The translations under genes were made by a program, and so were the position numbers. The notes under the pieces were generated by a model. It had not been told where the DNA came from and did no database searches. It saw nothing but the letters and a program-made list of their open reading frames with translations. Positions 5,559 to 42,571 of a stretch of 64,000 nucleotides of DNA are shown piece after piece (position 1 is the stretch's first letter; each line of letters begins with the position of its first letter). Origin of the DNA: Alphaproteobacteria bacterium (GTDB lineage Bacteria; Pseudomonadota; Alphaproteobacteria; TMED109); NCBI GenBank assembly GCA_022819905.1, contig JAJEGJ010000087.1:1-64000 (forward strand). The letters are read 5' to 3'.

Positions 5559-6461
5559 TCAGCTGCGCGCAATCAAGGCCCCCGACGCGCCGACCACCCG
5601 GGAGGCGATCTTGTGGCCGGCCAGGAGGCATCGCCCTTCATCTTCGCCGCGAAGGAGCGCCGCCAGGTAACCGCCGTTGAAGCTGTCTCCCGCCGCAGTC
5701 GTATCGACGACCCCGGGTGCGGGGGCGAATTCGGGATGCGCGCCGCGCGCGAGCCGCGGCGACACCGGGCCGAGCGCTCCCCGCTTGATGGCGCAGGCAT
5801 GCCAGTCTGAAGAGGCAAATCGCGCAATTACGGCCTCTTCGTCCGCATCGCCGAACAAGGCGATTTCGTCGTCAACCGAAGGCAGGGCAATGTCCGCAAC
5901 CTGCCACATCTCCCGGACTGAGCGGCGCGCGGTCTCGGCGTCCTCCCAGAGTTGCGGCCGGTAGTTCGAATCGAAGGCCACATGGCAGGCGCTGCGCCCC
6001 CGCAACTCGCGCAAATGCGCGATGAGGCGCTGGCGGGCCGAAGGATGCACGATGGCCAGCGTTATGGCCGACAGATAAACAACCCTCGCGGGCGGCAGGG
6101 AAACAGGGGGCTCGGCGGACGCGAACAGTCGGCGCGCCGCCGAGTTGCTGCGCCAGTAGTGAAAGATGCGTTCGCCGGCACTGTCGGTCGAGACGGTGTA
6201 AACGCCGAGGTTGCGTTCACGATCGAAGCCGACCTGGGAAACATCGATCCCCTCTTTCTTCGCGACGCTCAGGAAGGCATGGGAAAGGGGATCACAGCCG
6301 ACACGCGTGCAATAGCCGATGCGGGCCGATGGGTCGGACTCCCTGACGCAATAGACCGCGGTGTTGAACGTGTCGCCGGCAAACCCGACGCGGAAGCCGG
6401 CGGTCGGATCTTGTCGGATCTCGGCCATGACTTCGCCGATGGCGAGCAGATCCACTGTCAC
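5559..6461 (-). CDS. kdgK: 2-keto-3-deoxygluconate kinase (PfkB family)
   Basis: A PfkB/ribokinase-fold sugar kinase. The N-terminal 'DLLAIGEVMAEIR' and 'FAGDTFNTAVY' are characteristic of KDG kinases, and the C-terminal 'VDTTAAGDSFNGGYL' holds the catalytic Asp of the anion hole (here AAGD rather than GAGD). The start at GTG 6461 was chosen because the family begins just before LLAIGE; an upstream TTG at 6512 would add 17 unrelated residues. It phosphorylates KDG to KDPG, the substrate of the aldolase directly downstream, making a two-step pathway fed by the enolase-superfamily dehydratase at the end of the cluster. Confidence 0.9.
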   Translation of the reverse strand: MTVDLLAIGEVMAEIRQDPTAGFRVGFAGDTFNTAVYCVRESDPSARIGYCTRVGCDPLSHAFLSVAKKEGIDVSQVGFDRERNLGVYTVSTDSAGERIFHYWRSNSAARRLFASAEPPVSLPPARVVYLSAITLAIVHPSARQRLIAHLRELRGRSACHVAFDSNYRPQLWEDAETARRSVREMWQVADIALPSVDDEIALFGDADEEAVIARFASSDWHACAIKRGALGPVSPRLARGAHPEFAPAPGVVDTTAAGDSFNGGYLAALLRGEDEGRCLLAGHKIASRVVGASGALIARS

Positions 6462-7141
6462 CAGTCCGGTGCGAAGGCAGACATACTCGATTCCCAGTGC
6501 TCTGTAAGGCAATTGTCGCGGGTGACACCGGCCGGTCGTTATCGTCCTGCGTCCGTTCTACAGCATCTTCGAATATGTGATCGGTCGTTGCGACCAGCCG
6601 CTGCCGTGGAGTGCCCCTGCCGACCCGCATGCAGGCCACTTGAACACGGCGATCTGTGGGTGCGTTTCTGCCTACGGCCTCGGTTGGCGCGCAGTCCTCT
6701 CTCGGCACGCCCGTTCCGCCGCCCATGAATCGCCTGAGAACGGATCTCTCGGCAACGCCATCACGTCATGACAGCTCAGGTGAGTGTCGATTTGTTCGGC
6801 AACCTGTCGATAGTAATTTCACAAGAAATGAGAAAACTCTCTCAAGCATCTATTTATGCTTTGGTTTAAGATATGCCCTTGCTTTCACAGCCGTTGAGGC
6901 CGGTATCTTCGGGTAAACCCGGTCTGCGACGGCGCGACCTACTCGTTGTGGAGCAAGCACACCGCTGAACGCACCCGTGCTGCCCGGCCACGCTAGGCCA
7001 TCACGTCCCCAGTTCACCGGCGCAATACGTGCGCGCGGTCAATTGGTGCTCGCCCGGCACGGACGGCGCCACAACAGAAACGCTGTGCGGCGGCAACGAT
7101 TTCCTCGCGATCAGCGGTTACCTCGACGGGCGCAATCATCA
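6462..7141. other. Intergenic region with AT-rich segment and inverted repeat
   Basis: No gene is recognisable over about 680 bp. The part around 6780-6900 is clearly AT-richer than its surroundings and contains a perfect inverted repeat, AAGCAT (6844-6849), CTATTT, ATGCTT (6856-6861), which could be an operator for the divergently placed kdgK-eda operon. The assignment to a regulator is a guess. Confidence 0.4.
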
Positions 7142-7178
7142 GAAAAACGACCGGAGCCCGGTGATCGGACTCCGGTCG
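7142..7178 (-). terminator. Rho-independent terminator of the PQQ dehydrogenase transcript
   Basis: Read on the minus strand, the stem arms CGACCGGAG (7178-7170) and CTCCGGTCG (7156-7148) extend with one mismatch to 12 bp, close on a short loop and are followed at once by five T (7147-7143). It lies about 80 bp after the dehydrogenase stop, the expected distance for an intrinsic terminator. Confidence 0.9.
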
Positions 7179-7255
7179 CAAAATTCCCGTGTTCAGGGTT
7201 GGGCTTCAGGGCGGCGCTTGCATCCGCAACGCCGCCCCCAAGCCTCCTGCAAGCC

Positions 7256-8995
7256 CTACGGAAGCGCGAACACCCAGATCACGCCACCCTGCGGTACGTG
7301 CACGTCGTACCCGGGAATGATGCCGCGCAGGACGTCCTGCTTGCGCTCGGCGTCCACGCCCCAGCCCGACTGTACGGCAACGTACTGCTTGCCATCGACG
7401 CTGTAGGTGCTCGGCGAAGCGGTCACACCCGAATTCGTCGGGTATTCCCACAGCGTTTCGCCGGTCGCCGCATCATGGGCACGGAACATGTGGTCGTTGG
7501 TGCCGCCGGAGAACAGCACACCGCCACCGGTCGCCAGAATCGGACCCCAGTTCTGGTGTGCGAAGTCCTTGCTCCACACTTCCTCGCCACTGTCGACGTT
7601 CCAGGCCTGGATTTCCCCGATGTGGTCCCACCCCTCACGGAGGCTGAACCCGCCGAGGATCACCGGGATCGGCACCCCGATGTACAGCTCGCCCGGCACG
7701 TACTTCTCTTCGGCACCTTCCAGGGTGCTGCAGAGGTTCTCGTTCGCCGGAATGTAGAGCAGGCCCGTGTCCGGGCTGTAGGCCGAATACGGCCAGTCCT
7801 TGCCGCCCCAGAGCGACGGACAGAACAGCGCTGCCTTCCCGGTGCCCGGCCAGTGATTGTCGTCATACGACACGCGGCCCGTGTCGGGATCGAACGCAGT
7901 GATCACGTTGCTGTAGACGTAGCCCCACGCGTCGACGAACTCGATCGGACCTTCAGCGGTCGGCTTCAGAAGGTAGATGTGACCGTTGCGGGCCACGTTG
8001 ACGAGTGCCTTGAAGGTCTCCCCGTCACGGGTGACGTCGTAGATGAGCGGGGGTGAGACCTCATCCCAGTCCCAGGAATCGTTCCAGTGGTACTGGTGGT
8101 GTCCCACGAGCGCCCCGGATTCCACGTCCACCGCAATGACCGACGTCGTGTAGAGGTTGTCCATGCCGCCGCGGGTGTCACCCATCCAGGGCGCGGCGTT
8201 GCCGATACCCCAATAGGAAAGACCCGTGTCGGGGTCGTAGTTCCCCGTCAGCCACACCGATCCTCCGCCGGTCTTCCAGGCGTCGTCGTCCGGCCAGGTA
8301 TCGCTCCCTGGCTCGCCTGGCGCCGGCACCGTGTAGGTACGCCACGCCTCTTCACCGGACTCCGCATCGTAGGCTGCGACGTAACCGCGGATGCCGTATT
8401 CACCGCCGGACACGCCCACCATGATCTTGCCCTTGGCAGCCAGCGGAGCGATCGTCATGTAGTAGCCCGCCTGGTAGTCGTCGACGGCGACCTCCCAGAT
8501 CACCTCGCCGGTTCGAGCATCGAGCGCGACCAGGAAGCAGTCGGTGAGCGCCACGTAGAGCCTGTCGCCTAGCAGCGCCGGTCCACGGTTGGTGGGGTGC
8601 AGCTGGAAGAGGTCTTCCGGCAGCTCTCTCTGAAAACGCCACAGCCGCTTGCCGGTGGCCGCATCGAGAGCCAGGACCTGGTTCATCGGCGTGGTGACAT
8701 ACATCACGCCGTCGTTGACCAGCGGCGGTGCTTGGTGTCCTTCCTGAACGCCAGTCGAGAACAGCCAGGCCGGTTGCAGAGACCCGACGTTCGAGGTGTT
8801 GATCTGGTCGAGCGGGCTGTACCCCCACCCCTCCCGGTTGCCCCGAACCTGGAGCCAGTTGTGCGGCTCCGGGTTGTCCAGTCGATCCTCGGTGACCGGG
8901 TTGTAGTTCTCGATGGCGTCGGCGCTGGTCGCGCTGCCCACCATCAGGGCGAGAAGTGCGGCCGCTACGGCCGTGCCCGTCAATAGACTCCTCAT
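7256..8995 (-). CDS. Periplasmic PQQ-dependent alcohol dehydrogenase (methanol/ethanol type), lanthanide-type active site
   Basis: A 579-residue quinoprotein with a Sec signal peptide (MRSLLTGTAV to SATSADA) and repeated beta-propeller W motifs such as 'LALDAATGKRLWRF' and 'LVALDARTGEVIWE'. The start at 8995 has GGGGAG upstream. Active-site positions are readable: Glu199 (SGGEYGIRGY), Asn266 (YWGIGNAAPW) and catalytic Asp309 in 'WNDSWDWDEVSPP'. Asp311, two residues after Asp309, is the extra carboxylate that marks lanthanide-dependent XoxF/ExaF-type enzymes. The vicinal Cys-Cys pair near 'NRGPAL' is absent (QLHPTNRG), which is unusual. There is no fused cytochrome c domain. It oxidises an alcohol or sugar in the periplasm; its electrons may go to the Rieske protein encoded just upstream. 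The substrate is unknown. Confidence 0.92.
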   Translation of the reverse strand: MRSLLTGTAVAAALLALMVGSATSADAIENYNPVTEDRLDNPEPHNWLQVRGNREGWGYSPLDQINTSNVGSLQPAWLFSTGVQEGHQAPPLVNDGVMYVTTPMNQVLALDAATGKRLWRFQRELPEDLFQLHPTNRGPALLGDRLYVALTDCFLVALDARTGEVIWEVAVDDYQAGYYMTIAPLAAKGKIMVGVSGGEYGIRGYVAAYDAESGEEAWRTYTVPAPGEPGSDTWPDDDAWKTGGGSVWLTGNYDPDTGLSYWGIGNAAPWMGDTRGGMDNLYTTSVIAVDVESGALVGHHQYHWNDSWDWDEVSPPLIYDVTRDGETFKALVNVARNGHIYLLKPTAEGPIEFVDAWGYVYSNVITAFDPDTGRVSYDDNHWPGTGKAALFCPSLWGGKDWPYSAYSPDTGLLYIPANENLCSTLEGAEEKYVPGELYIGVPIPVILGGFSLREGWDHIGEIQAWNVDSGEEVWSKDFAHQNWGPILATGGGVLFSGGTNDHMFRAHDAATGETLWEYPTNSGVTASPSTYSVDGKQYVAVQSGWGVDAERKQDVLRGIIPGYDVHVPQGGVIWVFALP

Positions 8996-31298: not shown

Positions 31299-31389
31299 CA
31301 GAAGACGGCGGCCGCAACCTCCCGGCACGACACCTCGCGCATCCAACAATTGTTGACAGGCAGGCCGGGCATGCGAGATTGGCTTCGCC

Positions 31390-34257
31390 ATGGAGAACGG
31401 CGGCACAGGATCGCGTAGCGGCAAGACCGACCCCAACGGTGCAGCGCAGCTGCTGCACCTGATCGCGAACCTCTCGCAAGAGCTTCGTTCCGCGCGCGAC
31501 ACCCCGCGCGTTACCCTCGAAAGCAGGCTAAGCGAAGAACTGGGTTTCGACAGCCTGGGGCGCACCGAGCTGCTGGTGCGCATCGAGCAGACATTCTCGG
31601 TCAGCCTTCCCGGATCGACGCTGGCAGAAGCTGAAACCCCAGCCGATCTCTTGCGCGCGATGGAAGCGGCCGGCGGGCGACGCGGGCGCGCGACCCCGCG
31701 GCTCCCGGCGGACACGGCCCAAGGCCCCGTTGAAGCAATACCGAGCGCCGCGGCGACCCTGACCGAGATGCTCGATTGGCACGCCCACGCCCATCCCGAC
31801 CGCGTCCATGCCTGGCTCCGGGAACGGGAAGACCATCTCGAGACCATCACCTACGCGAGCCTCCGCGAGACGGCTCTCGCCGTCTCCAGCGGCATCCTCG
31901 ATGCGGGACCGACGCCGGGCACCCGCGTCGCATTGATGCTGCCCACCTGCGCGGGGTTTCTGCACGCCTTCTTCGGGATCCTCTACGCCGGCTGCGTGCC
32001 GGTCCCGATCTATCCACCGGCGCGGCCTTCGCAGCTCGCGGATCACCTGCGCCGGCAGGCCGTGATACTCGCCAACGCGGGAGCCGAGATTCTGGTCACC
32101 GTGCCGGAGGCGCGCGTGCTCGCGAACTTCCTGCGCTCGAAGGTCGCGAGCCTTCGGGCGGTCGAGACCGTCGAGGGACTCCTTGGGTGCGGCGGAGCGG
32201 CAGCGGCCCCGCCGCGCGACGCGGGAGACGTCGCCTTTCTCCAGTACACCTCGGGCAGCACCGGCGATCCGAAGGGCGTGGTGCTGAGCCACGCCAATCT
32301 GCTGGCCAACATTCGCGCCATGGGCCGGACCATGGAAGTCGAGCCCGACCGCGACGTGTTCGTGAGCTGGCTTCCGCTCTACCACGACATGGGCCTGATC
32401 GGCGCGTGGCTGGGCAGCCTCCATTTCGCGGTGCCGGTCTCGATCATGTCGCCGCTCATCTTCCTGGCGCGCCCGGAGAGCTGGCTGTGGGAGATCCACG
32501 CCCGGCGGGCGACACTTTCGGGTGCGCCCAACTTCGCCTTCGACCTGTGCGTCGGACGGATCGACGACAGCGCGATCGAGGGCCTCGACCTCAGCTCGGC
32601 CCGCATGGTCGTCAACGGGGCGGAGCCGGTGCGGGCCGCGTCTGTCCGGGCGTTCTGCGAGCGCTTCGCGCCCCACGGCTTCGATCCCGGGGCACTCGCC
32701 CCCGTCTACGGCCTGGCCGAAAGCAGCGTGGGGCTGGCCTTTCCCAGGCCGGGCCGGGGGCTGCTCGCCGATCGGGTCGACCGGACCGAGCTGATCGAGC
32801 GGTCGCGTGCGGTGCCGGTGACGACCGGGCACGAAGACGCGATCGAGGTCGTGGCGTGCGGTTCGCCGATCCCCGGGCATCAGTTCCGGGTGGTCGACGA
32901 TTCCGGCCGCGAAGCGCCCGAGCGCCGCCAGGGGCGGCTGCAATTCAACGGTCCCTCGTCGACCGTCGGCTACCACGAGAACGCGGCTGCGACGCGCGAC
33001 CTGTTCGACGGCGACTGGCTCGAGACCGGCGACCTGGCCTACGTCGCCGGGGGCGAGGTCTATCTGACTGGCCGGATCAAGGACATCATCATCCGCGGCG
33101 GCCGCAACATCCATCCGCACGAGCTGGAAGCCGCCGTCGGCGACCTTCCCGGCATCCGGCGCGGCTGCGTCGCGGTCTTTGCGGCCGCCGGGCCCGACCG
33201 GGCCGAGCGGCTGGTGGTGGTCGCCGAGACCCGCGAGGAGGACGGGCCTGCCCGTGACCGGATGCGGCAGAGCATCGAGGCAGCGGCGGTGGATATCGCG
33301 GGCATCGCACCGGACGACGTCGTCCTGGCGCCGCCCCGGGCCGTGCTCAAGACCTCGAGCGGCAAGCTCCGCCGCGCCGCCACCCGCGCACGCTACCTGG
33401 AGGGCCGTCTCCACGAAGCCGCCCCCGGGCTCTGGCGGCAACTGCTCGGGCTGTGGCTCTCGGCGACCACCGGCAGGTTGCGCGCCGGGGGTCGCCTGGT
33501 GCTCGGCCGCGCCTTCGCCGGCTACTGGTGGGCCGTCCTGGTGGCCCTGGCGTTGGCCGTCTGGCCGCTGGTGATCGTGCTGCCCCGGCGCGCCTGGCGC
33601 TGGAAGGTGGTCCATGCGGCCGCACGGGTCATGCTGAAGCTCACCGGCACGCGGCTGACCGTGAGCGGCGAGTCCGCTCCGGAACGAGGCGCCATCCTAG
33701 TGGCCAATCACAGCAGTTATCTCGACAGTCTGGTGCTCGTCGCGGCCCTGCCCGGCGAGACCGCCTTTGCCGCCAAGGCCGAGCTGGCTTCGCAGCTGAT
33801 CGCCGGACCGTTCCTGCGCCGGCTCGGCGCGCTGTTCGTGGAGCGGTTCGACGACGCCCGCGGCCGGGGCGACATGGACGACGTCATCGAGGCGGCGCGG
33901 GCGGGCCGCCGGCTGGCGGTCTATCCGGAAGGGACGCTCACCCGCCGCCCCGGCCTGCTTGCCTTCAAGCTTGGCGCCTTCGCCGCTGCTGCTGCCGCCG
34001 GGGTGCCCGTGGTGCCGGTGACGCTGCACGGGACGCGGTCGGTACTGCGCGGCGGTCAGTGGTATCCCCGCCCCGGCGACGTGCAGGTCACGGTGGGCTC
34101 ACCGTTGTTCACAGAGCAGGACGGCTTCGACGCCGCGATCACGCTCCGCGATGCGGCGCGGGCGGCGATCCTGACCGGTTGCGGGGAGCCGGATCTTGCC
34201 GGCGAGGAGACCCTGCTGAAGGACCCTCGAACCACGCCGCCCTCACCCCCCACCTGA
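31390..34257 (+). CDS. ACP - fatty acyl-AMP ligase - acyltransferase fusion protein
   Basis: A 955-residue three-domain enzyme. Residues about 20-95 are an acyl carrier protein with the phosphopantetheine Ser55 in 'ELGFDSLGRTELLVRIEQ'. Residues about 125-680 are an ANL ligase of the FAAL/FadD type: YTSGSTGDPKGVVLSHANL near 286, 'WLPLYHDMGLIGAWLGSL', 'TGDLAYVAGGEVYLTGRIKD' and the late Lys in LKTSSGKLRRAA. After a membrane helix pair (about 700-740) comes a PlsC-type acyltransferase with NHSSYLD (HX4D, near 773) and 'YPEGTLTRRPGLLAFKLGA'. It could activate a free fatty acid, carry it on its own ACP and transfer it to a lysophospholipid or another acceptor at the membrane. The domain order differs from Aas. 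Confidence 0.92.
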   Translation: MENGGTGSRSGKTDPNGAAQLLHLIANLSQELRSARDTPRVTLESRLSEELGFDSLGRTELLVRIEQTFSVSLPGSTLAEAETPADLLRAMEAAGGRRGRATPRLPADTAQGPVEAIPSAAATLTEMLDWHAHAHPDRVHAWLREREDHLETITYASLRETALAVSSGILDAGPTPGTRVALMLPTCAGFLHAFFGILYAGCVPVPIYPPARPSQLADHLRRQAVILANAGAEILVTVPEARVLANFLRSKVASLRAVETVEGLLGCGGAAAAPPRDAGDVAFLQYTSGSTGDPKGVVLSHANLLANIRAMGRTMEVEPDRDVFVSWLPLYHDMGLIGAWLGSLHFAVPVSIMSPLIFLARPESWLWEIHARRATLSGAPNFAFDLCVGRIDDSAIEGLDLSSARMVVNGAEPVRAASVRAFCERFAPHGFDPGALAPVYGLAESSVGLAFPRPGRGLLADRVDRTELIERSRAVPVTTGHEDAIEVVACGSPIPGHQFRVVDDSGREAPERRQGRLQFNGPSSTVGYHENAAATRDLFDGDWLETGDLAYVAGGEVYLTGRIKDIIIRGGRNIHPHELEAAVGDLPGIRRGCVAVFAAAGPDRAERLVVVAETREEDGPARDRMRQSIEAAAVDIAGIAPDDVVLAPPRAVLKTSSGKLRRAATRARYLEGRLHEAAPGLWRQLLGLWLSATTGRLRAGGRLVLGRAFAGYWWAVLVALALAVWPLVIVLPRRAWRWKVVHAAARVMLKLTGTRLTVSGESAPERGAILVANHSSYLDSLVLVAALPGETAFAAKAELASQLIAGPFLRRLGALFVERFDDARGRGDMDDVIEAARAGRRLAVYPEGTLTRRPGLLAFKLGAFAAAAAAGVPVVPVTLHGTRSVLRGGQWYPRPGDVQVTVGSPLFTEQDGFDAAITLRDAARAAILTGCGEPDLAGEETLLKDPRTTPPSPPT

Positions 34258-34287
34258 GCCGGGGCAGCGCGGACGAACGGGCGAAGG

Positions 34288-34579
34288 ATGCTCCGTCCGG
34301 TCGCTGGGTCAGCCTCCTTGATCATCACGCCGCCAAGCGCGTGGCGACTGCGCTATACCGGATGGAGATGGGAAACCTGTCCAATGTGAAGGCGGCGGCG
34401 GCGGGGTCATGGAGTACCGAATCGACTTCGGGCTCGGCTACCGGATCTACTTCGGACGGGATGATGATGTGTTGATCATTCTCCTCGGCGGGGGAACGAA
34501 AGTGCGCCAGCAGCGCGACATCGAGACCGCGGTGGCGTTGTGGGGCGAGTACAGACAGAGCAAGCGGCAGGAGGGCTGA
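34288..34579 (+). pseudogene. Frameshifted RelE/ParE-family toxin
   Basis: Frame 1 reads 'HHAAKRVATALYRMEMGNLS' then NVKAAAAG; a one-base shift in the GCG repeat near 34391-34408 moves to 'GVMEYRIDFGLGYRIYFGRD', DDVLIILLGGGTKVRQQRDI and ETAVALWGEYRQSKRQEG before TGA at 34577-34579. This is the usual sequence of the short RelE-type 'addiction module killer' toxins. The N-terminal strand is also missing. The matching antitoxin starts 4 bp later and is intact. Confidence 0.8.
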
Positions 34580-34583
34580 GACT

Positions 34584-34901
34584 ATGCCATTGACACGCGA
34601 CTTCAGAGTGACGATCACGGAGCGGCTCGCTCGCGATCCGGGCTTCCGGGAGGCGCTGCTCGAAGAAGGTGTGCAGCGTCTTCTTGCCGGCGAGGTCGAT
34701 GTCGGCAAGTCGATTCTGCGCGACTATGTCAATGCAACCATTGGGTTTCAGGAACTCGGCGGATTGACCGCGAAGTCGCCCAAAAGCCTGATGCGAATGC
34801 TCGGCCCGAAGGGCAATCCGCAGGCGCGCAATCTATTCGAGATCATCAGCTGCCTTCAGGAGCGCGAGGGCCTGCACCTCAAAGTACAGGCGGTTCGATA
34901 A
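34584..34901 (+). CDS. Antitoxin of a RelE-type addiction module (HigA-like), toxin dead
   Basis: A 105-residue protein matching the 'addiction module antidote' family: 'LTRDFRVTITERLARDPGFR', EALLEEGVQRLLAGEVDVGK, 'LRDYVNATIGFQELGGLTAK', and the recognition helix region SPKSLMRMLGPKGNPQARNLF. It is preceded by the frameshifted toxin at 4-bp spacing. The protein is full length, so it is retained as a regulator or simply not yet lost. Its 3' end overlaps the convergent Phd/IS630 chimera by about 23 bp. Confidence 0.88.
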   Translation: MPLTRDFRVTITERLARDPGFREALLEEGVQRLLAGEVDVGKSILRDYVNATIGFQELGGLTAKSPKSLMRMLGPKGNPQARNLFEIISCLQEREGLHLKVQAVR

Positions 34902-35226
34902 CTGGTACCCGCCGTCCACTTGTTCGGCCGCGGGCCATGGTACATCGGGCTTGCAGTTCTCGGTCCGGCCCCCTCCAAGTGCGGCCAGGTGTTTTCACCG
35001 TGCGCATCTGGGTGTCGCACATCCAGCGCCTGATCTTGGCGAAGGCCTGCTCGATGGGGTTGAGATCCGGCGAGTACGCCGGCAGATCCGGGGGCTCGTA
35101 CGGAACGATCATCGCGATGGGTTCCCGGGACTGTCCGTACAGGATGCCAATCCGCTCGCCGGCACGGACCGCCGCAAGCACCTTGGAGAACTGCGCCATA
35201 AGTTCGGCAACGGACAAAGTGATCAC
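34879..35226 (-). pseudogene. Phd/YefM antitoxin N-terminus fused to an IS630 transposase tail
   Basis: A 115-codon open frame. Residues 1-44 are a Phd/YefM antitoxin: 'MITLSVAELMAQFSKVLAAV', RAGERIGILYGQSREPIAMIV. Residues 45-69 are the C-terminal DDE part of an IS630 transposase, 'LPAYSPDLNPIEQAFAKIRR', with the last catalytic Glu in NPIE. The rest is transposase-like to about residue 92 and then unrelated. The frame stays open across the joint, so a chimeric DNA-binding protein could in principle be made, but no toxin partner follows. Confidence 0.75.
34950..35094 (-). mobile_element. IS630-family transposase remnant
   Basis: About 145 bp encode the third catalytic motif region of an IS630/Tc1-mariner-type transposase (YSPDLNPIEQAFAKIRRWM). 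No terminal inverted repeats or upstream transposase half were found. It truncates a Phd-type antitoxin gene. Confidence 0.75.
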
Positions 35227-35701
35227 GCGCAGACCCGGTCATGAAGATGTCGTCATCTCAGGAACCTGTTGACAGGACGTCTGGCCGCCGTGACTGAAAA
35301 ACCGTCCCGCACGACGCCGCATTGACTCGCATTCGGGCCGCTCGTAGGAAATCCGTGCGATGTGTCCCAAAGGGTGTTCGTTCGAGTGGCGAACCCGTGA
35401 ACCCGCCACCGAACGATAGGGCCACCGCAGGAGTCGCTGACGGCGGGACAGTCCCGCTGCGGCCACTGGGCAACCCAAACGATTGAGGTTTCGTCGTCAG
35501 TTATGGAAGCAGTTTCTCCGCAGCCACCAATCGTTAGTTCTGGTCGCTCCTGCTCCCGGAGACCGGCGTCGTCGTGCAGGATCGCCGACACCTCGGGCGC
35601 AACCCGTGCGGCAATCTGGGCAGTCATTCCATGCCGGTAATGGCCCTGGACGGCCTCGGCGCCGACCGCGCCGCCGCCCTGGACACCTCGAGGCGCACAG
35701 C
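35227..35701. other. Intergenic stretch, nothing recognised
   Basis: Frames on both strands are open for over 100 codons in places, but none resembles a family and codon usage is not convincing. Possibly further decayed insertion-sequence DNA. Confidence 0.4.
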
Positions 35702-36628
35702 GTGACCGCGCCGTCCGGCTTCGAGCTGCCGGCGCCCACGGCGACGCTCGACCTCACCATGGACGACGGCGCGCCCATCCAGGTCGTCCGCCACGGCAAC
35801 CCGTCCGGGCCACGCGTGATCCTGAGCCACGGGAACGGCTTCGCCAGTGATTCCTACTTCCCGTTCTGGCAGCACATGCTCGAGCGTTTCGATCTTGCCC
35901 TGTTCGACTTCCGGAACTGCGGGCGCAATCCGTTCCATGCGGCCGAGCCCCACAGCTATCACCGCTTCGCGTGCGACAACGTGGCGGTTCATCGCGCCAT
36001 CGCCGAGGCGTGGGGCGGGAAGACCACCATCGGCGTCTTCCATTCGATGTCGGCGATAGCGGCGCTGCTCGCAGTCATCCAAGGCGTCTGGCACTGGGAT
36101 GCGCTGGTGCTGTTTGACCCGCCCGTGATGCCGCCTGTGGGCCACCCGCTGCACGCGCCGCTGGTGGCCGCGGGCGAGATACTTCGCGACGCCGCCCGAA
36201 TCCGGCAGAATCGATTCTCTGACCCCGGCGAGCTGGCTGAAGTGTTTCGTACCCTGCACCGGTTCCGGCGCATGCGGAGAGGAGTTGCGGAACTCAACGC
36301 GCGATCGACGCTGCGCTTCGTTCCCGCCGACGGCGCCTGGGAGCTCTGCTGTCCGGGGCCGGTCGAAGCCGGTCTGTATACCGACGTGGCAGCGCTGCCG
36401 ATATGGCAGGAGGCTGGCCCGCCCGCGCGACCGATGCTGATCGTGGGCTCGGACCCGGAACTAGACGGGGCACTGAAAACCTCGCGGCGTTGCCCGGAAT
36501 TCTGCGAACTTCACGGCATCGAATACGCTGCTGTGCCCGACACCACCCACCTCCTGCAGGTCGAAGAACCGGAACGATGCTTCGCCCTGTTCAATGGTTT
36601 CCTCGAGGAGCACGGGATCACCGAATGA
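35702..36628 (+). CDS. Alpha/beta-hydrolase
   Basis: A 308-residue hydrolase starting at GTG 35702 (VTAPSGFELPAPTATLDLTM). The fold is clear: 'HGNPSGPRVILSHGNGFASD' with the HGNG oxyanion loop, 'LALFDFRNCGRNP', the nucleophile strand 'TIGVFHSMSAIAALLAV', 'MLIVGSDPELDG' (acid) and 'DTTHLLQVEEPERC' (His). The nucleophile elbow reads FHSMS rather than GxSxG, with Ser in place of the last Gly, so activity may be altered. Similar proteins hydrolyse esters or carbon-carbon bonds; the substrate is unknown. No clear operon partner. Confidence 0.85.
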   Translation: MTAPSGFELPAPTATLDLTMDDGAPIQVVRHGNPSGPRVILSHGNGFASDSYFPFWQHMLERFDLALFDFRNCGRNPFHAAEPHSYHRFACDNVAVHRAIAEAWGGKTTIGVFHSMSAIAALLAVIQGVWHWDALVLFDPPVMPPVGHPLHAPLVAAGEILRDAARIRQNRFSDPGELAEVFRTLHRFRRMRRGVAELNARSTLRFVPADGAWELCCPGPVEAGLYTDVAALPIWQEAGPPARPMLIVGSDPELDGALKTSRRCPEFCELHGIEYAAVPDTTHLLQVEEPERCFALFNGFLEEHGITE

Positions 36629-36839
36629 ACGCGCCGCTGGTCGCTGAACTTCGACCGTTTCATGGCCTCTTCCCCGTCGCGTCCATGAAAACCTAACCGA
36701 GAATTTTCTCGTTATCAGTGGTCCAGATTCCGGGGAGCAGGTCAGGTCCTCCGATTACTCACCTTAACGGTGGACCCATTCATCGGGGGCAGGTCATGTC
36801 GGCGGCGACTTTTCGGCGAACGTTTGAAAAAGGGGCAAT

Positions 36840-37290
36840 GTCTCGCTCAGGAATACGATGGTAAGCACGCCGCCCTCGGATCAGCGTTCAACCAGTCGGG
36901 GAAACACGCCCCGGAGAACCCGCCACCTCTCATCGTTTCGGACCTAGCGCGGTTCCGTATCGCACCGACTAGACCAATGGCGTGAGCTCGACGCGCGAGT
37001 TGGCGCTTGACGAACAATCCGATGCAACTACCTGCGGCAAACTGAAGTGGGCCAGGTACGATCCGGAACGCTTGCGTCCAGCCGGAGCAGATAGCTGCTG
37101 ACCGAGCACGCTGCGGCGAGCTTGGTACGGGGCTACAGTCGCTACGCCTACGGTGTCAAGAACCGCAAGCGGTGACGCACATTGTGAATCATCTGGTTTT
37201 CTGCCCGTTCGCCGACAACAAGAGCGTGCAGCCCGACGACCTCTTAACGCAGATCCTGCTGCAGTTCGCTCTTCACGATGCAAGGTAACG
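36840..37290 (+). pseudogene. Remnant of an MmeI-like (type IIL) DNA methyltransferase/restriction enzyme
   Basis: Plus-strand frames carry three consecutive blocks of the MmeI/YeeA-like family in the right order: 'FNQSGKHAPENPPPLIVSDL' (family: ..ENPPLLVVSDMDRFEIHTNWT), then after a frameshift a TAG in place of the Trp of NWTNTVS, 'TRELALDEQSDATTCGKLKW' with YDPERLRPA (family: KLKWAFSDPERLRP), and then 'VTHIVNHLVFCPFADNKSVQ' (family: HFVNRLVFCMFAEDVGLLP). The methyltransferase catalytic motifs and nuclease are gone. This is a dead restriction-modification gene close to a tRNA. Confidence 0.75.
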
Positions 37291-37346
37291 TGCCGTTTCC
37301 ATACACGACCAAGGCTTTGTATACTCAATAATGTGTCTTGATGGCA

Positions 37347-37447
37347 TGGTACCCCCAGTGGGATTCGAACCCACACGGACGTTGCCCGAGAGCAATGTGT
37401 CCACTCAATTCGCAGTTGAGCGCGTCTACCAATTTCGCCATAGGGGC
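37347..37447 (-). tRNA. Class II tRNA with Leu-like body, anticodon GCG and an oversized variable region
   Basis: A cloverleaf of 98 nt plus encoded CCA. Acceptor GCCCCTA/TGGGGGT (one G.U at the end, one U.G), D arm GCG-AAATTGGTAGA-CGC with the GG pair, anticodon arm CTCAA-CTGCGAA-TTGAG, T arm GTGGG-TTCGAAT-CCCAC, discriminator A. Positions 34-36 are GCG, an Arg (CGC/CGU) anticodon. The D arm, acceptor and A73 look like alphaproteobacterial tRNA-Leu. Between the anticodon and T stems are 29 nt, far more than a Leu variable arm, able to fold as GGAC...GTCC around an inner TTGC-TCTCGG-GCAA hairpin. Isotype is therefore unclear: Leu by body, Arg by anticodon. Confidence 0.85.
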
Positions 37448-37925
37448 ACCGAAAGCGGTGGTTGACTGCCTCGGCTTAGTTCCGGCAAGGTCTCCCACCA
37501 GTTTAACGATCTCGGCGGGGCTTCTGCCCCGCCGGGGTCCACCGAATTTATAGTGCCGATCGATCTTCCTAGCAACCTAACGATCCGACAGCCAATAGGC
37601 AGTTAATGTGGCGCGCCGGCGCATTACTATAGGCGACGAAGAACAACCATGTTTTTACACGTATGCGTCTTTTACATCCATACCGGCCGCTAGAACGGTC
37701 CAGGGTTAGGTGGTCCTCGCGAAAGGTTCTCAATTAGGTCTCTATGCCCTTAGCGCCTAATCCGAAGTAGTCGTTTTAAGATTATGATTTTACAGAAAAT
37801 ATATAGATATTGGATCGTGGGTGAATTGCTTATACCTCCCCCTTGACTTTTTTCCTGGAAACACCAGATTCCTACTATTCTGACCTACTGCAGGTCATGC
37901 ACTCAAAAACGTATTGGAGCACACC
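37448..37925. other. AT-rich intergenic region upstream of the tRNA and a hypothetical gene
   Basis: Contains a perfect hairpin CGGCGGGGC (37513-37521), TTCT loop, GCCCCGCCG (37526-37534) with no T-run, and an AT-rich block around 37770-37880. A TTGACT at 37843-37848 is a possible -35 box for the plus-strand gene at 37926, without a good -10 at the right spacing. No gene seen. Confidence 0.45.
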
Positions 37926-38606
37926 ATGTTATCTCATCCTTCTTCAGACCTTGAAGAGTGCATCGAGAGGTGCAAGCGGGTTCACGATCAAGTAGGTACT
38001 AAGCAGATCGGTAGAGAGGCACTGGTCGCTGCTCTTGGGTATCGTAGCCTGAGCGGGGCGAGCATTGCCAAGATTTCTGACCTGCGCAAATTCGGGCTCA
38101 TAACGGGCAGTCGTGACGAGATCCGCGTATCTGACATCTTCATGAAGATTCGGTTTCCTCAGCCCGGCGAAGATGTGCAGTCAGCAAAGTTGCAGGCCGC
38201 AACTATGCCCGGATTGTTTGCAGACCTTCACTCAAAGTTCCCACAGTTTCCCATCAGTGAAGCCAACGTTTCCAGCTATCTTGCGCGATCGGGCTTGGAC
38301 GAGAATCGTGCGCAGGCCGTCACCCGGGACTATCTCAAAACTATGGAGTACGTAAACTCGGGCGGTAGCGCACACGCTTCTGCGGGTGCTTCTCAGAGCG
38401 AATCACAACCCGAAGTTCGCGCTGCTGCAGACTCGGACGACATATTGTCATTCACGGCTAAAGGAGTGTCGGTAACCGTAACAGAAGATGCAGATAAGAA
38501 TGCGCTGATGCTTGCCAGAGAAGTGATAGAGGTCGCACTAGCCAGGCCCCAACATTCGATTCCACAGCTCACGTATGAAACAGACGATCATTCCAAGCAT
38601 TCATAA
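37926..38606 (+). CDS. Hypothetical protein with winged-helix-like N-terminus, AT-richer
   Basis: A 226-residue protein from ATG 37926 with GGAG upstream. The first 90 residues ('ECIERCKRVHDQVGTKQIGR', EALVAALGYRSLSGASIAKI, 'SDLRKFGLITGSRDEIRVSD') read as a winged helix: a turn-helix with 'GYRSLSGASIAKISDLRKFG' followed by a beta wing. A second helical region at 90-145 ends before a Ser/Ala-rich linker, and a short C-terminal strand-helix domain follows (FTAKGVSVTVTEDADKNALM). No known family is recalled by name. Lower GC than neighbours and flanked by its own hairpin terminator, so it looks like an independent acquired gene. A transcription-regulator role is possible but unproven. Confidence 0.65.
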   Translation: MLSHPSSDLEECIERCKRVHDQVGTKQIGREALVAALGYRSLSGASIAKISDLRKFGLITGSRDEIRVSDIFMKIRFPQPGEDVQSAKLQAATMPGLFADLHSKFPQFPISEANVSSYLARSGLDENRAQAVTRDYLKTMEYVNSGGSAHASAGASQSESQPEVRAAADSDDILSFTAKGVSVTVTEDADKNALMLAREVIEVALARPQHSIPQLTYETDDHSKHS

Positions 38607-38631
38607 GGTTAGGTTCCGATGCGGTCGACGG

Positions 38632-38662
38632 CCGCGCGCATGAACGTAATTTCATGCGCGCG
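38632..38662 (+). terminator. Hairpin terminator after the hypothetical gene
   Basis: A perfect 13-bp stem, CCGCGCGCATGAA (38632-38644), loop CGTAA, TTCATGCGCGCGG (38650-38662), followed by TTGGTTGT. It lies 26 bp after the stop codon. The T-run is imperfect, but position and stem strength favour a terminator. Confidence 0.7.
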
Positions 38663-39303
38663 GTTGGTTGTGATCATTAACGACGCTTTGGCCGGTACGG
38701 CGACGCAAATCTCGATCTTCTTACTTTCCTCCTCACGATTGGCCCGGGGACGGATACTCCGTGCTCATCCGTTCTGTCCGCCAACGGGGATTACTTCGAC
38801 CGCTGCAAGTCGACCAGCCCAGCCTCCTTTGGCCCAAATTGTCATGGCATGTACGTAACGCCCTAGCGGCGCTGAACAACTCCGGCGGGCGAGGCGATGC
38901 CACCCTTGCGAGCCGGGCTCGGATCGAACGTATCTCGCTGACGCCCATCTTCGCCCGGAGCAAGGCTGACGCGAAGCCGGTCGGCGTCTCGGCACTGTCC
39001 ACACATAAACCCGTGTCGGGGACAGTTGGTGCCATGCCAGCGCTCAAGTGCTGTATGCGTTGGTCTCAATGGTTGGTGGTTCAGAATTGGAATCCGGTGT
39101 CTCTGAATGATCCCGGCTGGAGAGCAATTCCCGGGACGTTCTCGGGCAGTGCCTCTTTCCAGCCGTCCACATGCCGATTCGGTGCCAATGAAACAGACGT
39201 AGCGTATCGCTCGAAATCGGCAATGCATAGTGTGAACCGAAAACTCATCCGACATGTCCTGCAACTGGTACTCGTGTAACGAGCCGGTTTCCAGCTATCA
39301 CTG
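38663..39303. other. Intergenic region, probably decayed DNA
   Basis: Both strands show frames of 70-170 codons without recognisable motifs. The composition is mixed, suggesting degenerate coding sequence, but no family could be named. Confidence 0.35.
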
Positions 39304-40140
39304 CTAGCGGCCACTCACCTGTGCAGCCTCAGTGCCACTGTAGCGCGGCGGGCCACCGAGCGTGCCTCCCCCATCGACCACGAGGGTTTGGCCGGTGATG
39401 TAGCGCGCCCACCCCGACGCGAGAAAGACGACCGCGCGGCCGATGTCCCAACCGGTGCCTTCGATGCCAAGGAGCGAGTACTTCCGTCGTCGTTCGCGCG
39501 CCTCGTCCGACATGCCGTCCGCGTAGACCATCGGTGTGTAGACCACGCCCGGAGCGATGCAGTTGACGCGAATCCCGTCGCTCGCGTGGTCGATCGCCAT
39601 CGCCCGGGTCAGGCCAATAACCGCGGCCTTCGACGTGGAATAGGCGGACATGCCACGCGGTCGCAACGCGGCGATCGAGGAAATGTTCACGATCGCGCCG
39701 CCGTCGCCGCTCTCAATCATCGCCGGGATGGCATGCTTGGCGTTGAGGAACATCGCCTCGACATTGACCCGCATGACCCGTTCCCACTGGCTTTGGGTCT
39801 CCTCGGTCACCGCGCTGAGGCTCGCGATTCCGATGTTGTTGTCGAGAACATCAAGCCGTCCAAATTGACCGACTGCTGCCTCGACCATGGCCACGCACTG
39901 CTCCTCGTCGGTGAGGTCAGCTTCGTGGGCAACCGCCACACCACTCTCCGACTCGATCATGCGGACGGTTCCCTCGGCGAGCTCGAGCGACCGGTCCACC
40001 ACGAACACCTTGGCGCCCGCTCGCGCCAGGAGAATGGCCGCCGCCCGACCATTGCCGATGCCGTCGCCCGCCGCACCGCCACCCGCGACGATGGCAACCT
40101 TTCCTTCCAACCCGAGATCTGCCTGAAGACTGTCGTTCAC
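39304..40140 (-). CDS. Short-chain dehydrogenase/reductase
   Basis: A 278-residue SDR from GTG 40140, preceded by GGGG. The glycine motif is 'VAGGGAAGDGIGNGRAAAI' (a variant TGxxxGxG with insertion), followed by 'VDRSLELAEGTV', the NNIG stretch (LDNNIGIASL), catalytic Ser in 'IVNISSIAALRPRG', and Tyr/Lys in 'AYSTSKAAV'. The C-terminus 'YITGQTLVVDGGGTLGGPP' is typical of the classical fabG-like group. It reduces a ketone or oxidises an alcohol with NAD(P)H. No neighbouring pathway gene indicates the substrate. Confidence 0.93.
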   Translation of the reverse strand: MNDSLQADLGLEGKVAIVAGGGAAGDGIGNGRAAAILLARAGAKVFVVDRSLELAEGTVRMIESESGVAVAHEADLTDEEQCVAMVEAAVGQFGRLDVLDNNIGIASLSAVTEETQSQWERVMRVNVEAMFLNAKHAIPAMIESGDGGAIVNISSIAALRPRGMSAYSTSKAAVIGLTRAMAIDHASDGIRVNCIAPGVVYTPMVYADGMSDEARERRRKYSLLGIEGTGWDIGRAVVFLASGWARYITGQTLVVDGGGTLGGPPRYSGTEAAQVSGR

Positions 40141-40502
40141 CGTAAATCCCCCATCGCTAAAGATGCTGGATGTTAGTTCCACGTCCGCCCGTGTTGGACT
40201 CGATGCGGAAGCGCCTGTCCGCCAACTACCTTTCGGCCTTACGGACCGCCGCACCACCCGACTGAAATAACCGCGAGCGATGACCGCCCAACGCGGACCG
40301 GCGATACACGCAGCCCGTTGGCAACTTGCCCAAACCCGGGTCGATCGGACTATTGCCAGCCGGATGGCGCACCGAACGGAGCGAACGATTTGAGTGAATG
40401 CGGCGGGGCAATTTGCCTCGCGTCGGAAGCCACCGGCGGTGTGACCCGCCCTAGTCCCTGCGCCTCAGCTCCGTTCAGTCGAACATGCGTGATCTGGCGA
40501 GG
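40141..40502. other. Intergenic stretch, nothing recognised
   Basis: No gene, strong hairpin or repeat was recognised between the SDR gene and the nucleoside hydrolase gene. Confidence 0.5.
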
Positions 40503-41318
40503 TTACGGCGTCGAAGCCTTGAATCGCACCAGGCGCTCGGTCAAGAGGGTAAAAAACCCGTCTGAATTCACGTGCTCGAGAACACGGGCATTCGGCGTAC
40601 CGCTTCGCCCGTACACGTCGCAGACCGTCCGTCCCTGAGAGTGTTCGCCTGCCAGTTCAATCTCGACCCGCATGTCGCGCCCTTCGAACAGCTCAGGCTT
40701 CAGGAGATACGCAATCACGCACGGATCATGGAGCGGAGGGTCGTGGCGATACTTGGCTGTAGTTCGCGCACCGTAAAACTCAAGCATGCCGCAGACAGCC
40801 ACCGCAGGCGGCGTGCCCAGGGACCGGATCGCATCGATTCGCGCAGGCGTTGCAGTCGCCTGCCGGGTGACGTCGAGCCCCACCATCGTGAGCGGTACAC
40901 CCGCTTCGAAGACCACATGGGCCGCATGCGGATCGGCATAGATGTTGAACTCGGCCGCCGCGGTGACGTTGCCGAGCCCGATGGCGCCGCCCATCGCCAC
41001 GATCTCGGCGACATTGTCGAGGATCGACGGGTTCTTGATGATTGCGAGCGCGACATTGGTGAGCGGCCCGAGGGTGGCGAGGGTCACGGGCGCGCGCACC
41101 ATGGGCCGCGGGCAGCCGGCATACACGGGCAGCTCGGGCCGGCCGGCCAGATCCCTGACCCGGCGCGCGTTGGCCTCGGTCTTTGCCAGGGGCACGTTGC
41201 CGGCAACCGCCGTCACGCCAAGCAGGTCGAATTCCTTGGTAGATGCGATGGCCAGCAACAGGGCGATGGCGTCGTCCTGACCCGGATCACAGTCGATGAT
41301 CAGTGGCCGCGCGCCCAT
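40503..41318 (-). CDS. Inosine-uridine-preferring nucleoside hydrolase with an internal deletion
   Basis: A 271-residue protein from ATG 41318. The calcium-binding signature 'IIDCDPGQDDAIALLLA' is intact, as are 'GVTAVAGNVPLAKTEANARR', 'LGPLTNVALAI', 'IVAMGGAIGLGNVTAAAEFN' (Asn/Glu of the active site) and 'LHDPCVIAYLL' with the catalytic-pocket His. Between 'CPRPMVRAP' and 'VTLATLGPLTN' about 45 residues found in relatives (the segment with HGxTGLDG and the following helix) are missing in frame. Full-length members are about 310-315 residues. The missing loop contains an active-site His and lines the ribose pocket, so the enzyme may be inactive or changed in specificity. Confidence 0.9.
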   Translation of the reverse strand: MGARPLIIDCDPGQDDAIALLLAIASTKEFDLLGVTAVAGNVPLAKTEANARRVRDLAGRPELPVYAGCPRPMVRAPVTLATLGPLTNVALAIIKNPSILDNVAEIVAMGGAIGLGNVTAAAEFNIYADPHAAHVVFEAGVPLTMVGLDVTRQATATPARIDAIRSLGTPPAVAVCGMLEFYGARTTAKYRHDPPLHDPCVIAYLLKPELFEGRDMRVEIELAGEHSQGRTVCDVYGRSGTPNARVLEHVNSDGFFTLLTERLVRFKASTP

Positions 41319-41644
41319 GCCTCGCCCCGCCCTGCCCGCAGTTCCGGCCAATCATAGGTCTCGCCTTGGCCGAGGCGCGTCCTGACCCGGTTGATGGCAT
41401 CCACTCTGCATCACCGCCAGCAGCTGGCGGTCGCGAGGAGTCGAGAGGCAGTCCTGCCCGTCCCCGCCTACGACCGAAAGGTCTTGCCTGCGCGCGCTGA
41501 GCGCGAACCCAAGCTACCGCGATCAGCGAGGAGGCCGTCGCCCCTGCCGGCGCCGGCCCTCTGGGCAACCCGCCCCGCTCGCCTCGCTCGTCCCCGGCCG
41601 GGCACCGGCTTACTCCATCAAGCTGGGCCAACACCATCTCGGCA
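41319..41644. other. Intergenic stretch, nothing recognised
   Basis: The gap between the nucleoside hydrolase start and the amidohydrolase stop has no recognisable gene. Very GC-rich open frames here lack family resemblance. Confidence 0.5.
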
Positions 41645-42571
41645 TCAGACCGACATGAGAACGCGCACATGCTCCGTGACGCTCGACGCGAGCGCCCCGA
41701 GGTCATAGCCGCCTTCAAGCGTGGCGGCCAGCCGGCCGCCGCATACCTCGTCGGCAACCTCGCAGAGCCGCTCCGTCACCCACGCGAAGTCGTCATCCTC
41801 CAGCCGCAGCGTCGCAAGCGGGTCGCGCACATGGCCGTCAAAGCCCGCGGACACCAGGATGATGTCGGGCTCGAACGCCCGCAACTGCGGCAGCACGGCC
41901 CCTTCCATGCCTGCGCGGAACTCGGTCGATCCCGACCCCGGTTCGAGCGGGACATTGACGATGTTGCCGACGCCCCGCTCGTCAGCGCGTCCCGTCCCGG
42001 GATAAAGGGGAAACTCGTGGGTCGAGGCGAAGAACAGCGACGGGTCGGACTCGAATCTCGCCTGGGTTCCGTTGCCGTGGTGGACGTCGAAGTCGACCAC
42101 GGCCACCCGCTCCGCGCCAAGCGCCTCGCGCGCATGCAGCGCGCCCACCGCGACATTGTTGAACAGGCAGAACCCCATGCTGCGCTCGGGCTCGGCGTGG
42201 TGCCCCGGCGGCCGGACTGCGCAAAAGGCGTTGGTGGCCTCGCCCCCCATCACCGCCGTCACCGCGGCAACCATCGCACCTGCCGCGCGGAGCGCCGCCT
42301 CGCCCGAATCGGGAGACATCACGGTATCGGCATCCACCCGGACGAGTCCCGTCTCCGGCACCGCATCCAGCAATGCCTCGACGTAGCGCGCGCTATGGGC
42401 ACGCGCGACCTGCTCACGTTCGGCCTCGGGGGCCTCGCGTCGAACGAGATCCGCAAACGCGTCGACGGACAATGCCTCCATCACCGCGCGATACCGTGCC
42501 GGACGCTCGGGATGGCCGGGACCAGTGTCGTGCCTGGCCGAGCTTTCATGGTGCAAAAGCAAGGTCGTCAT
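41645..42571 (-). CDS. Histone-deacetylase-superfamily deacylase (acetoin-utilisation AcuC/HDAH type)
   Basis: A 308-residue zinc hydrolase from ATG 42571, with GAAGGAG upstream. Signature elements: 'GPGHPERPARYRAV', the two active-site His in 'RPPGHHAEPERSMGFCLFNN', zinc ligands Asp and His in 'VVDFDVHHGNGTQ', 'FASTHEFPLYPGTG', the third zinc ligand in 'ILVSAGFDGHVRDPLA', and 'LEGGYDLGALASSV'. Bacterial members deacetylate polyamines or small acylamides, or proteins. All catalytic residues are present. It stands alone on the minus strand. Confidence 0.95.
   Translation of the reverse strand: MTTLLLHHESSARHDTGPGHPERPARYRAVMEALSVDAFADLVRREAPEAEREQVARAHSARYVEALLDAVPETGLVRVDADTVMSPDSGEAALRAAGAMVAAVTAVMGGEATNAFCAVRPPGHHAEPERSMGFCLFNNVAVGALHAREALGAERVAVVDFDVHHGNGTQARFESDPSLFFASTHEFPLYPGTGRADERGVGNIVNVPLEPGSGSTEFRAGMEGAVLPQLRAFEPDIILVSAGFDGHVRDPLATLRLEDDDFAWVTERLCEVADEVCGGRLAATLEGGYDLGALASSVTEHVRVLMSV

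Follow-up and report, generated by a model that had tools for sequence, protein, structure and literature searches.

Allo-tRNAs, reportedly described by Mukai et al. in 2017, have acceptor branches of 8/4 or 9/3 pairs. The tRNA gene studied here resembles them in its type II variable arm, its sporadic occurrence in metagenomes and phages and its sense anticodon mismatched to the body. It differs from them in its 7/5 branch and in having a leucine body, which is not serine- or selenocysteine-like. By its branch it is excluded from the allo-tRNAs, one of the options raised in the initial annotation. A disagreement of body and anticodon, with mistranslation shown, is also documented for tRNA-ProX (tRNA-ProA, -ProN and -ProT) of Streptomyces and Kitasatospora (PMC10365949, PMC11415595). 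These tRNAs are like the set reported below in joining the complete body of one amino acid to the anticodon of another, and in being natural, bacterial and present beside normal tRNAs. They use a proline frame, whereas the frame here is that of leucine, with Arg, Ala, Gly, His, Asp and Pro anticodons. They have a partner synthetase, whereas no adjacent or duplicated synthetase was found here. The Leu-frame set also occurs mainly in Gemmatimonadota and viral contigs, with a long variable arm in some members, and its mistranslation is a prediction, whereas that of tRNA-ProX was shown. In CUG-clade yeasts, an anticodon-blind synthetase lets tRNA-Ser(CAG) read the codon of another amino acid (PMC11415595). 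The principle is shared with the present case, but the yeast codon was reassigned, whereas normal Arg tRNAs are present here and no reassignment is indicated.

In the window (the whole 64-kb stretch analysed), the only Rfam match (cmscan) was the following tRNA gene.

37347..37447, minus strand: Leu-frame tRNA gene with anticodon GCG and encoded CCA (RF00005, 55 bits; stems 7/7, 5/5 and 5/5; Leu profile 45 vs Arg 10 bits)
37409..37415, minus strand: anticodon loop CTGCGAA, with the anticodon GCG at 37411-37413 (sequence reading and segment parse)
37375..37403, minus strand: 29-nt variable region with a 4-bp base stem, an ACA bulge and a 5-bp distal hairpin (parse; fold of the inner 26 nt)

The gene is real and intact. 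It matched RF00005 at 55.0 bits (gathering cut-off, 29 bits) over model positions 1-71 of 71, with an E-value of 3e-10 in 5 kb (cmscan). The minus-strand parse from 37447 to 37347 reads GCCCCTA-TGGCGAAATTGGTAGACGC-G-CTCAA-CTGCGAA-TTGAG-TGGACACATTGCTCTCGGGCAACGTCCGT-GTGGG-TTCGAAT-CCCAC-TGGGGGT-ACCA, with all 17 parsed pairs formed (acceptor 7/7, anticodon stem 5/5, T stem 5/5), the acceptor stem including a G1.U72 wobble. D-loop GG, T-loop TTCGAAT, A73 and CCA are also present, which bears out the cloverleaf with an intact T arm described in the initial annotation. The anticodon loop, C-U-G-C-G-A-A, gives the anticodon GCG. An alternative fold giving a standard anticodon, raised there as a concern, can be set aside: a 7-nt loop containing U33 and closed by a perfect 5-bp stem leaves GCG as the only register. 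An intron was ruled out as well, since the surplus bases sit in the variable region and not in the anticodon loop. The whole-strand minimum free energy structure of the tRNA alone was without the D and anticodon arms of the cloverleaf; computational folds of unmodified tRNAs often miss the cloverleaf.

The variable region is as oversized as had been claimed, at 29 nt vs 13-18 nt in canonical Leu tRNAs (45 distinct, from related and Gemmatimonadota genomes), and it holds an internal hairpin. Its inner arm, GGAC-ACA-UUGCU-CUCG-GGCAA-C-GUCC, folded at -8.0 kcal/mol (z -2.35; 4 of 200 shuffles were equal or better). At the base of the arm the unpaired bases, T ahead of the stem and GT behind it, are those of canonical Leu tRNAs, and the extra length is the distal hairpin beyond the ACA bulge, the distal part alone being lengthened. 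ARAGORN did not report the gene in the window, presumably owing to this long variable region.

The amino-acid identity was profiled with isotype HMMs built on anticodon-masked tRNAs taken from the host, from related genomes and from Gemmatimonadota, covering the ten isotypes with enough members (Ala, Tyr and His are among those without a profile). Against these ten profiles, the masked window tRNA scored 45 bits for Leu, 11 for Lys, 10 for Glu and 10 for Arg. The leucine determinants for E. coli LeuRS are A73, A15-U48, G18G19 and A20a; neither the anticodon nor the variable arm, in its sequence or its folding, is crucial for this enzyme, and the main arginine determinants are A20 and C35 (PMC9976931). 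The window tRNA carries A73, U8-A14, A15-U48, G18G19 and A20a, that is, all checkable leucine determinants, and the earlier reading of a Leu-type body with an Arg GCG anticodon stands. It has the body and determinants of a tRNA-Leu with C35 in place of the A35 of a Leu anticodon; it has the C35 of a tRNA-Arg with U20, not A20, and a low Arg score; and its GCG anticodon and 7/5 branch are not those of a tRNA-Sec, which has UCA. In joining a Leu body to an Arg anticodon it matches natural dual-identity tRNAs such as tRNA-ProX. Because all leucine determinants are present, C35 is accompanied by U20, and each of the three host Arg tRNAs detected has A20 and G73, leucine identity is expected, with LeuRS as the expected charging enzyme. 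The tRNA shares its acceptor sequence, D arm and A37-A38 with ordinary bacterial tRNA-Leu(CAA), from one of which (L002) it differs at 11 of 45 compared positions. All three anticodon bases, the 29-nt variable region and G1.U72 set it apart from that type.

The host draft genome (G000; 3.6 Mb, 96% complete) gave 42 tRNA-like matches, among them Arg ACG, CCG and CCT and Leu UAG, GAG and CAG. The encoded CCA and the Leu tRNAs of related genomes would point to a proteobacterial host, probably one of the Alphaproteobacteria. A fifth Leu-type tRNA (G000:C96:291008-291338), apparently split by about 228 nt, is probably tRNA-Leu(UAA) with an intron, and its D-arm variant is also present in congeners. 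Three low-scoring tRNA-like genes are without encoded CCA (G000:C96:2947-3019, C96:4245-4317 and C40:47091-47163; L053, L054 and L055), two having apparent six-base anticodon loops ATCGCA and one being short-armed with a Ser GCT anticodon. This 96%-complete draft yielded no tRNA-Leu(CAA) gene and no clear counterpart of the L076 locus. Replacement of a lost tRNA-Leu(CAA) was rejected as the role of the window tRNA, as GCG is unable to read UUG. Full-length LeuRS occurs once per genome in 12 genomes; the host has no second full-length copy and no synthetase paralogue near the tRNA, its LeuRS being on contig C46 and the tRNA on C11. Arginine codons in four window genes were CGC 67, CGG 66 and CGU 11. 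The earlier statement that CGC and CGU are the most used Arg codons thus fits CGC in these four genes, but CGG is level with it and CGU is well below both.

The genomic setting of the tRNA includes two further features.

37237..39280, no strand: segment of low GC (about 47-60%), nearly without DNA match in six same-genus genomes, holding the tRNA and an orphan frame (blastn vs genus; GC profile)
37914..38606, plus strand: orphan open reading frame of 230 aa that shares this segment with the tRNA, without known relatives

When 31300-42000 was compared with the genus by blastn, query positions 5959-7981 had no substantial match except one 80-bp piece; the GC content of this segment is 47-60% vs mostly 62-74% around it. 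Blocks conserved in congeners extend on the left to ~36.6 kb and on the right from ~39.3 kb, with only repeats and weak fragments between them. Because in two congeners, G003 and G001, a single contig carries blocks from both sides with order and orientation kept (~17 and ~10 kb apart), we read the tRNA site as a variable spot between conserved neighbours and not as an obvious misjoin. No relative of the orphan frame was found in Pfam, PHROG, phages, plasmids or viral contigs, and no close DNA relative of the tRNA was found among named phages and plasmids. Upstream of the tRNA on the minus strand no sigma-70-like promoter was found, which is weak evidence in either direction. Nearby, a short dispersed repeat (36625-36796) has many 75-92% copies across the genus genomes, and insertion-sequence debris lies at 34879-35226 on the minus strand, in a frame whose antitoxin-like start is followed by a C-terminal piece of a DDE_3 transposase.

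A strict pattern that combined the Leu D arm with the loop YTGCGAA was searched in 84,980 species genomes, from which genomes very near that of the window were perhaps left out. Ten loci were found, all titled Gemmatimonadetes or Gemmatimonas, together with three viral contigs, of which two are copies of a single phage region. In the look at relatives suggested by the initial annotation, the tRNA is absent from six same-genus genomes; the combination of Leu frame and GCG recurs at these loci and contigs. A looser GCG pattern detected 10 of 395 Gemmatimonadota genomes. In a T-loop-anchored scan for anticodons without A35, altered-anticodon Leu-frame tRNAs occurred in 24 of the 395, with the anticodons GCG (commonest), CGC, GGC, GCC, GTG, GTC, CGG and TGG, which belong to Arg, Ala, Gly, His, Asp and Pro. 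Five of 385 genomes of the window's class carried such tRNAs, namely the host (G000), G477 (six tandem copies with CGC and GCC, whose 29-30-nt variable arms are much like that of the window tRNA), G474 (two tandem TGC copies), G693 (two GGA genes) and G756 (GCC). The six-copy array (Ala CGC, Gly GCC) lies in two blocks at 10298-16030 of L197 (G477:C1:1505000-1524900) and adjoins two large repeat-rich, autotransporter-like genes; its anticodon and variable-arm loops vary between copies and its stems are nearly constant. An exact match to tRNA-Arg(ACG) was present in six of the nine Gemmatimonadota genomes checked, and in the other three, all drafts, the matches were at best Arg(CCG)-like.

The 12 distinct Gemmatimonadota GCG tRNAs had 203 of 204 stem pairs standard (maximum 156 with shuffled partners), a count somewhat favoured by the parser, which took only tRNAs with most pairs formed. 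Two-sided changes, which the parser does not favour, were seen at 12 of 17 stem pairs. Because of both, we infer that selection is maintaining these tRNAs. A defect or an assembly error, as considered earlier for the window tRNA, is not favoured, given its perfect fold, independent members with compensatory changes in another phylum and the flanking order kept in two congeners. Each of the 39 distinct altered Leu-frame tRNAs, 38 from cellular genomes and one from a virus, has A73 and U48, neither of which the search patterns required. G1.U72 occurred in 8 of 31 distinct acceptors of altered vs 2 of 26 of canonical Leu tRNAs; as a mark of a special role this excess was rejected, not being significant after repeated acceptors were collapsed (p = 0.09). 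Genes scanned near the Gemmatimonadota altered tRNAs were mostly ordinary metabolic or housekeeping ones, and no common neighbour gene was found at these loci beyond one near-identical genome pair and scattered weak matches. The window tRNA is part of a recurring, sporadic and probably mobile set of Leu-frame tRNAs with non-Leu anticodons.

Among viral contigs, a first, narrower pattern with a fixed D-loop length gave no match. The extra GCG matches of a looser viral pattern were rejected as nearly all due to chance, with a recognisable tRNA only in L100, L098/L099 and L381; the acceptor stem is broken in L098/L099 and the anticodon stem is poor in L381. On L100 (381-479 and 700-966), ~220 bp separate a GCG Leu-frame tRNA, its variable arm 25 nt long, from an integrase arm-binding domain, which suggests that this viral tRNA serves as an attachment site. 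As for the earlier idea that the window tRNA is an integration-site tRNA, the direct repeats listed in the window include no copy of it (att site) and the scanned neighbouring genes include no integrase, but this viral relative does have an integrase domain nearby.

With any anticodon allowed, at least 69 altered Leu-frame tRNAs were parsed among the viral matches listed, many with variable regions of 24-38 nt. In these listed matches the acceptor end was U1-A72 with G73 in 23 of 24 Asn GTT tRNAs and in the single Gln TTG tRNA, G73 was found in 4 of 4 Ser GCT and C73 in 3 of 3 His GTG tRNAs, and most others keep A73. Some viral Leu-frame tRNAs thus look rebuilt to the amino acid of their anticodon. 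The acceptor end of the window tRNA (A73, C2-G71) falls in the Leu-like group, and a mobile or viral origin of its long arm is plausible, though the searches gave no close DNA relative. The Asn GTT family (L251, L255, L259, L264, L273, L295, L297, L310, L322, L323, L327 and others), with its Asn-type acceptor (U1-A72, G73) and variable arms of 28-31 nt, apparently consists of tRNAs for asparagine that were rebuilt with a long-armed frame; for one member, a comparison with named phages gave no match. Other viral Leu-frame tRNAs have stop-codon anticodons (TTA in L286, L313, L332, L342 and L357; CTA in L275 and L290; TCA in L350) and are possible leucine-inserting suppressors.

With about even confidence, we interpret the window tRNA as a real, probably horizontally acquired leucine-identity gene in which GCG replaced the anticodon, most likely charged with leucine and reading CGC/CGU. 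Leucine is the most likely amino acid because bacterial LeuRS does not read the anticodon. The tRNA would be transcribed and charged by the host's single LeuRS, on the ribosome the leucyl-tRNA(GCG) would compete with the cell's tRNA-Arg(ACG) in reading CGC and CGU, and leucine would enter at a fraction of arginine codons as a low-level Arg-to-Leu substitution. The initial annotation reasoned soundly that charging by LeuRS would bring leucine to Arg codons. What the sequences show is the intact fold, the anticodon, the Leu-type body, the recurrence elsewhere with compensatory changes, the absence of the segment from congeners, the normal Arg tRNAs and the single LeuRS, whereas transcription, leucylation, decoding and any benefit are inferred. 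Strong expression is unlikely, since CGC is a common codon here and placing leucine at it should carry a cost, and the unusual G1.U72 and A37 next to G36 might weaken function. The lack of a promoter call and of a partner synthetase, unlike the Streptomyces tRNA-ProX set, counts against this interpretation, and absence from congeners means that there is no sign of long retention in the host lineage.

The chief rival is a silent passenger, a phage- or mobile-element-borne gene unexpressed in this host whose anticodon and variable arm drifted or came from a former host. The ~2-kb low-GC segment missing from six congeners and the lack of a promoter call are consistent with such a relic, as are the broken acceptor stem of L098/L099 and the long variable arms and odd anticodons common among the viral Leu-frame tRNAs listed. 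Decay has not visibly begun, however, as all stem pairs and CCA are intact; all three anticodon bases are unlike those of the nearest Leu(CAA) tRNAs, yet the stems are paired; and the same GCG recurs in other lineages with clear pair conservation. We regard a relic as rather unlikely. A non-ribosomal or protective RNA, acting as a Leu-tRNA donor for an aminoacyl-transferase or as an anticodon-nuclease decoy without decoding as its task, would fit the variable loops and nearly constant stems of the G477 array and the commoner G1.U72 in altered tRNAs, itself at p = 0.09. It appears improbable, as the cellular anticodons are all sense and lie in a well-formed loop with U33, and no common neighbour such as a transferase or nuclease was found at the loci scanned. 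The slimmest chance goes to an accessory arginine tRNA of unusual shape, a Leu frame charged by ArgRS without mistranslation. In its favour, the tRNA has C35 and G36, arginine identity tolerates A73, and the acceptor ends of the listed viral Asn, Ser and His tRNAs do fit their anticodons, but A20, the main bacterial ArgRS determinant, is missing, the host Arg tRNAs have A20 and G73, and cellular His, Asp, Ala and Gly anticodons sit on A73 acceptors with no visible match to those identities.

The literature search found no description of an altered-anticodon Leu-frame set, most subscription papers being outside its reach. As tRNAscan-SE 2.0 can flag conflicts of body and anticodon (PMC8450103), single genes of the set may have been flagged before. 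An annotation gap also exists, in that ARAGORN misses the long-armed window gene and labels shorter-armed ones tRNA-Arg from the anticodon alone. In the literature searched, natural bacterial mismatch of body and anticodon is mainly one proline-based family with its own synthetase. We tentatively suggest, at somewhat less than even confidence, that bacteria and viruses share a mobile pool of anticodon-swapped Leu-frame tRNAs, charged by LeuRS without a special synthetase, that would program leucine at Arg, Ala, Gly, His or Pro codons, the acceptor end of some viral members being rebuilt to the new amino acid. If true, a recurring set built on the leucine frame, with a range of anticodons, links to mobile or viral DNA and no partner enzyme, would make encoded mistranslation wider than thought, and able to spread as a single ~100-bp gene.
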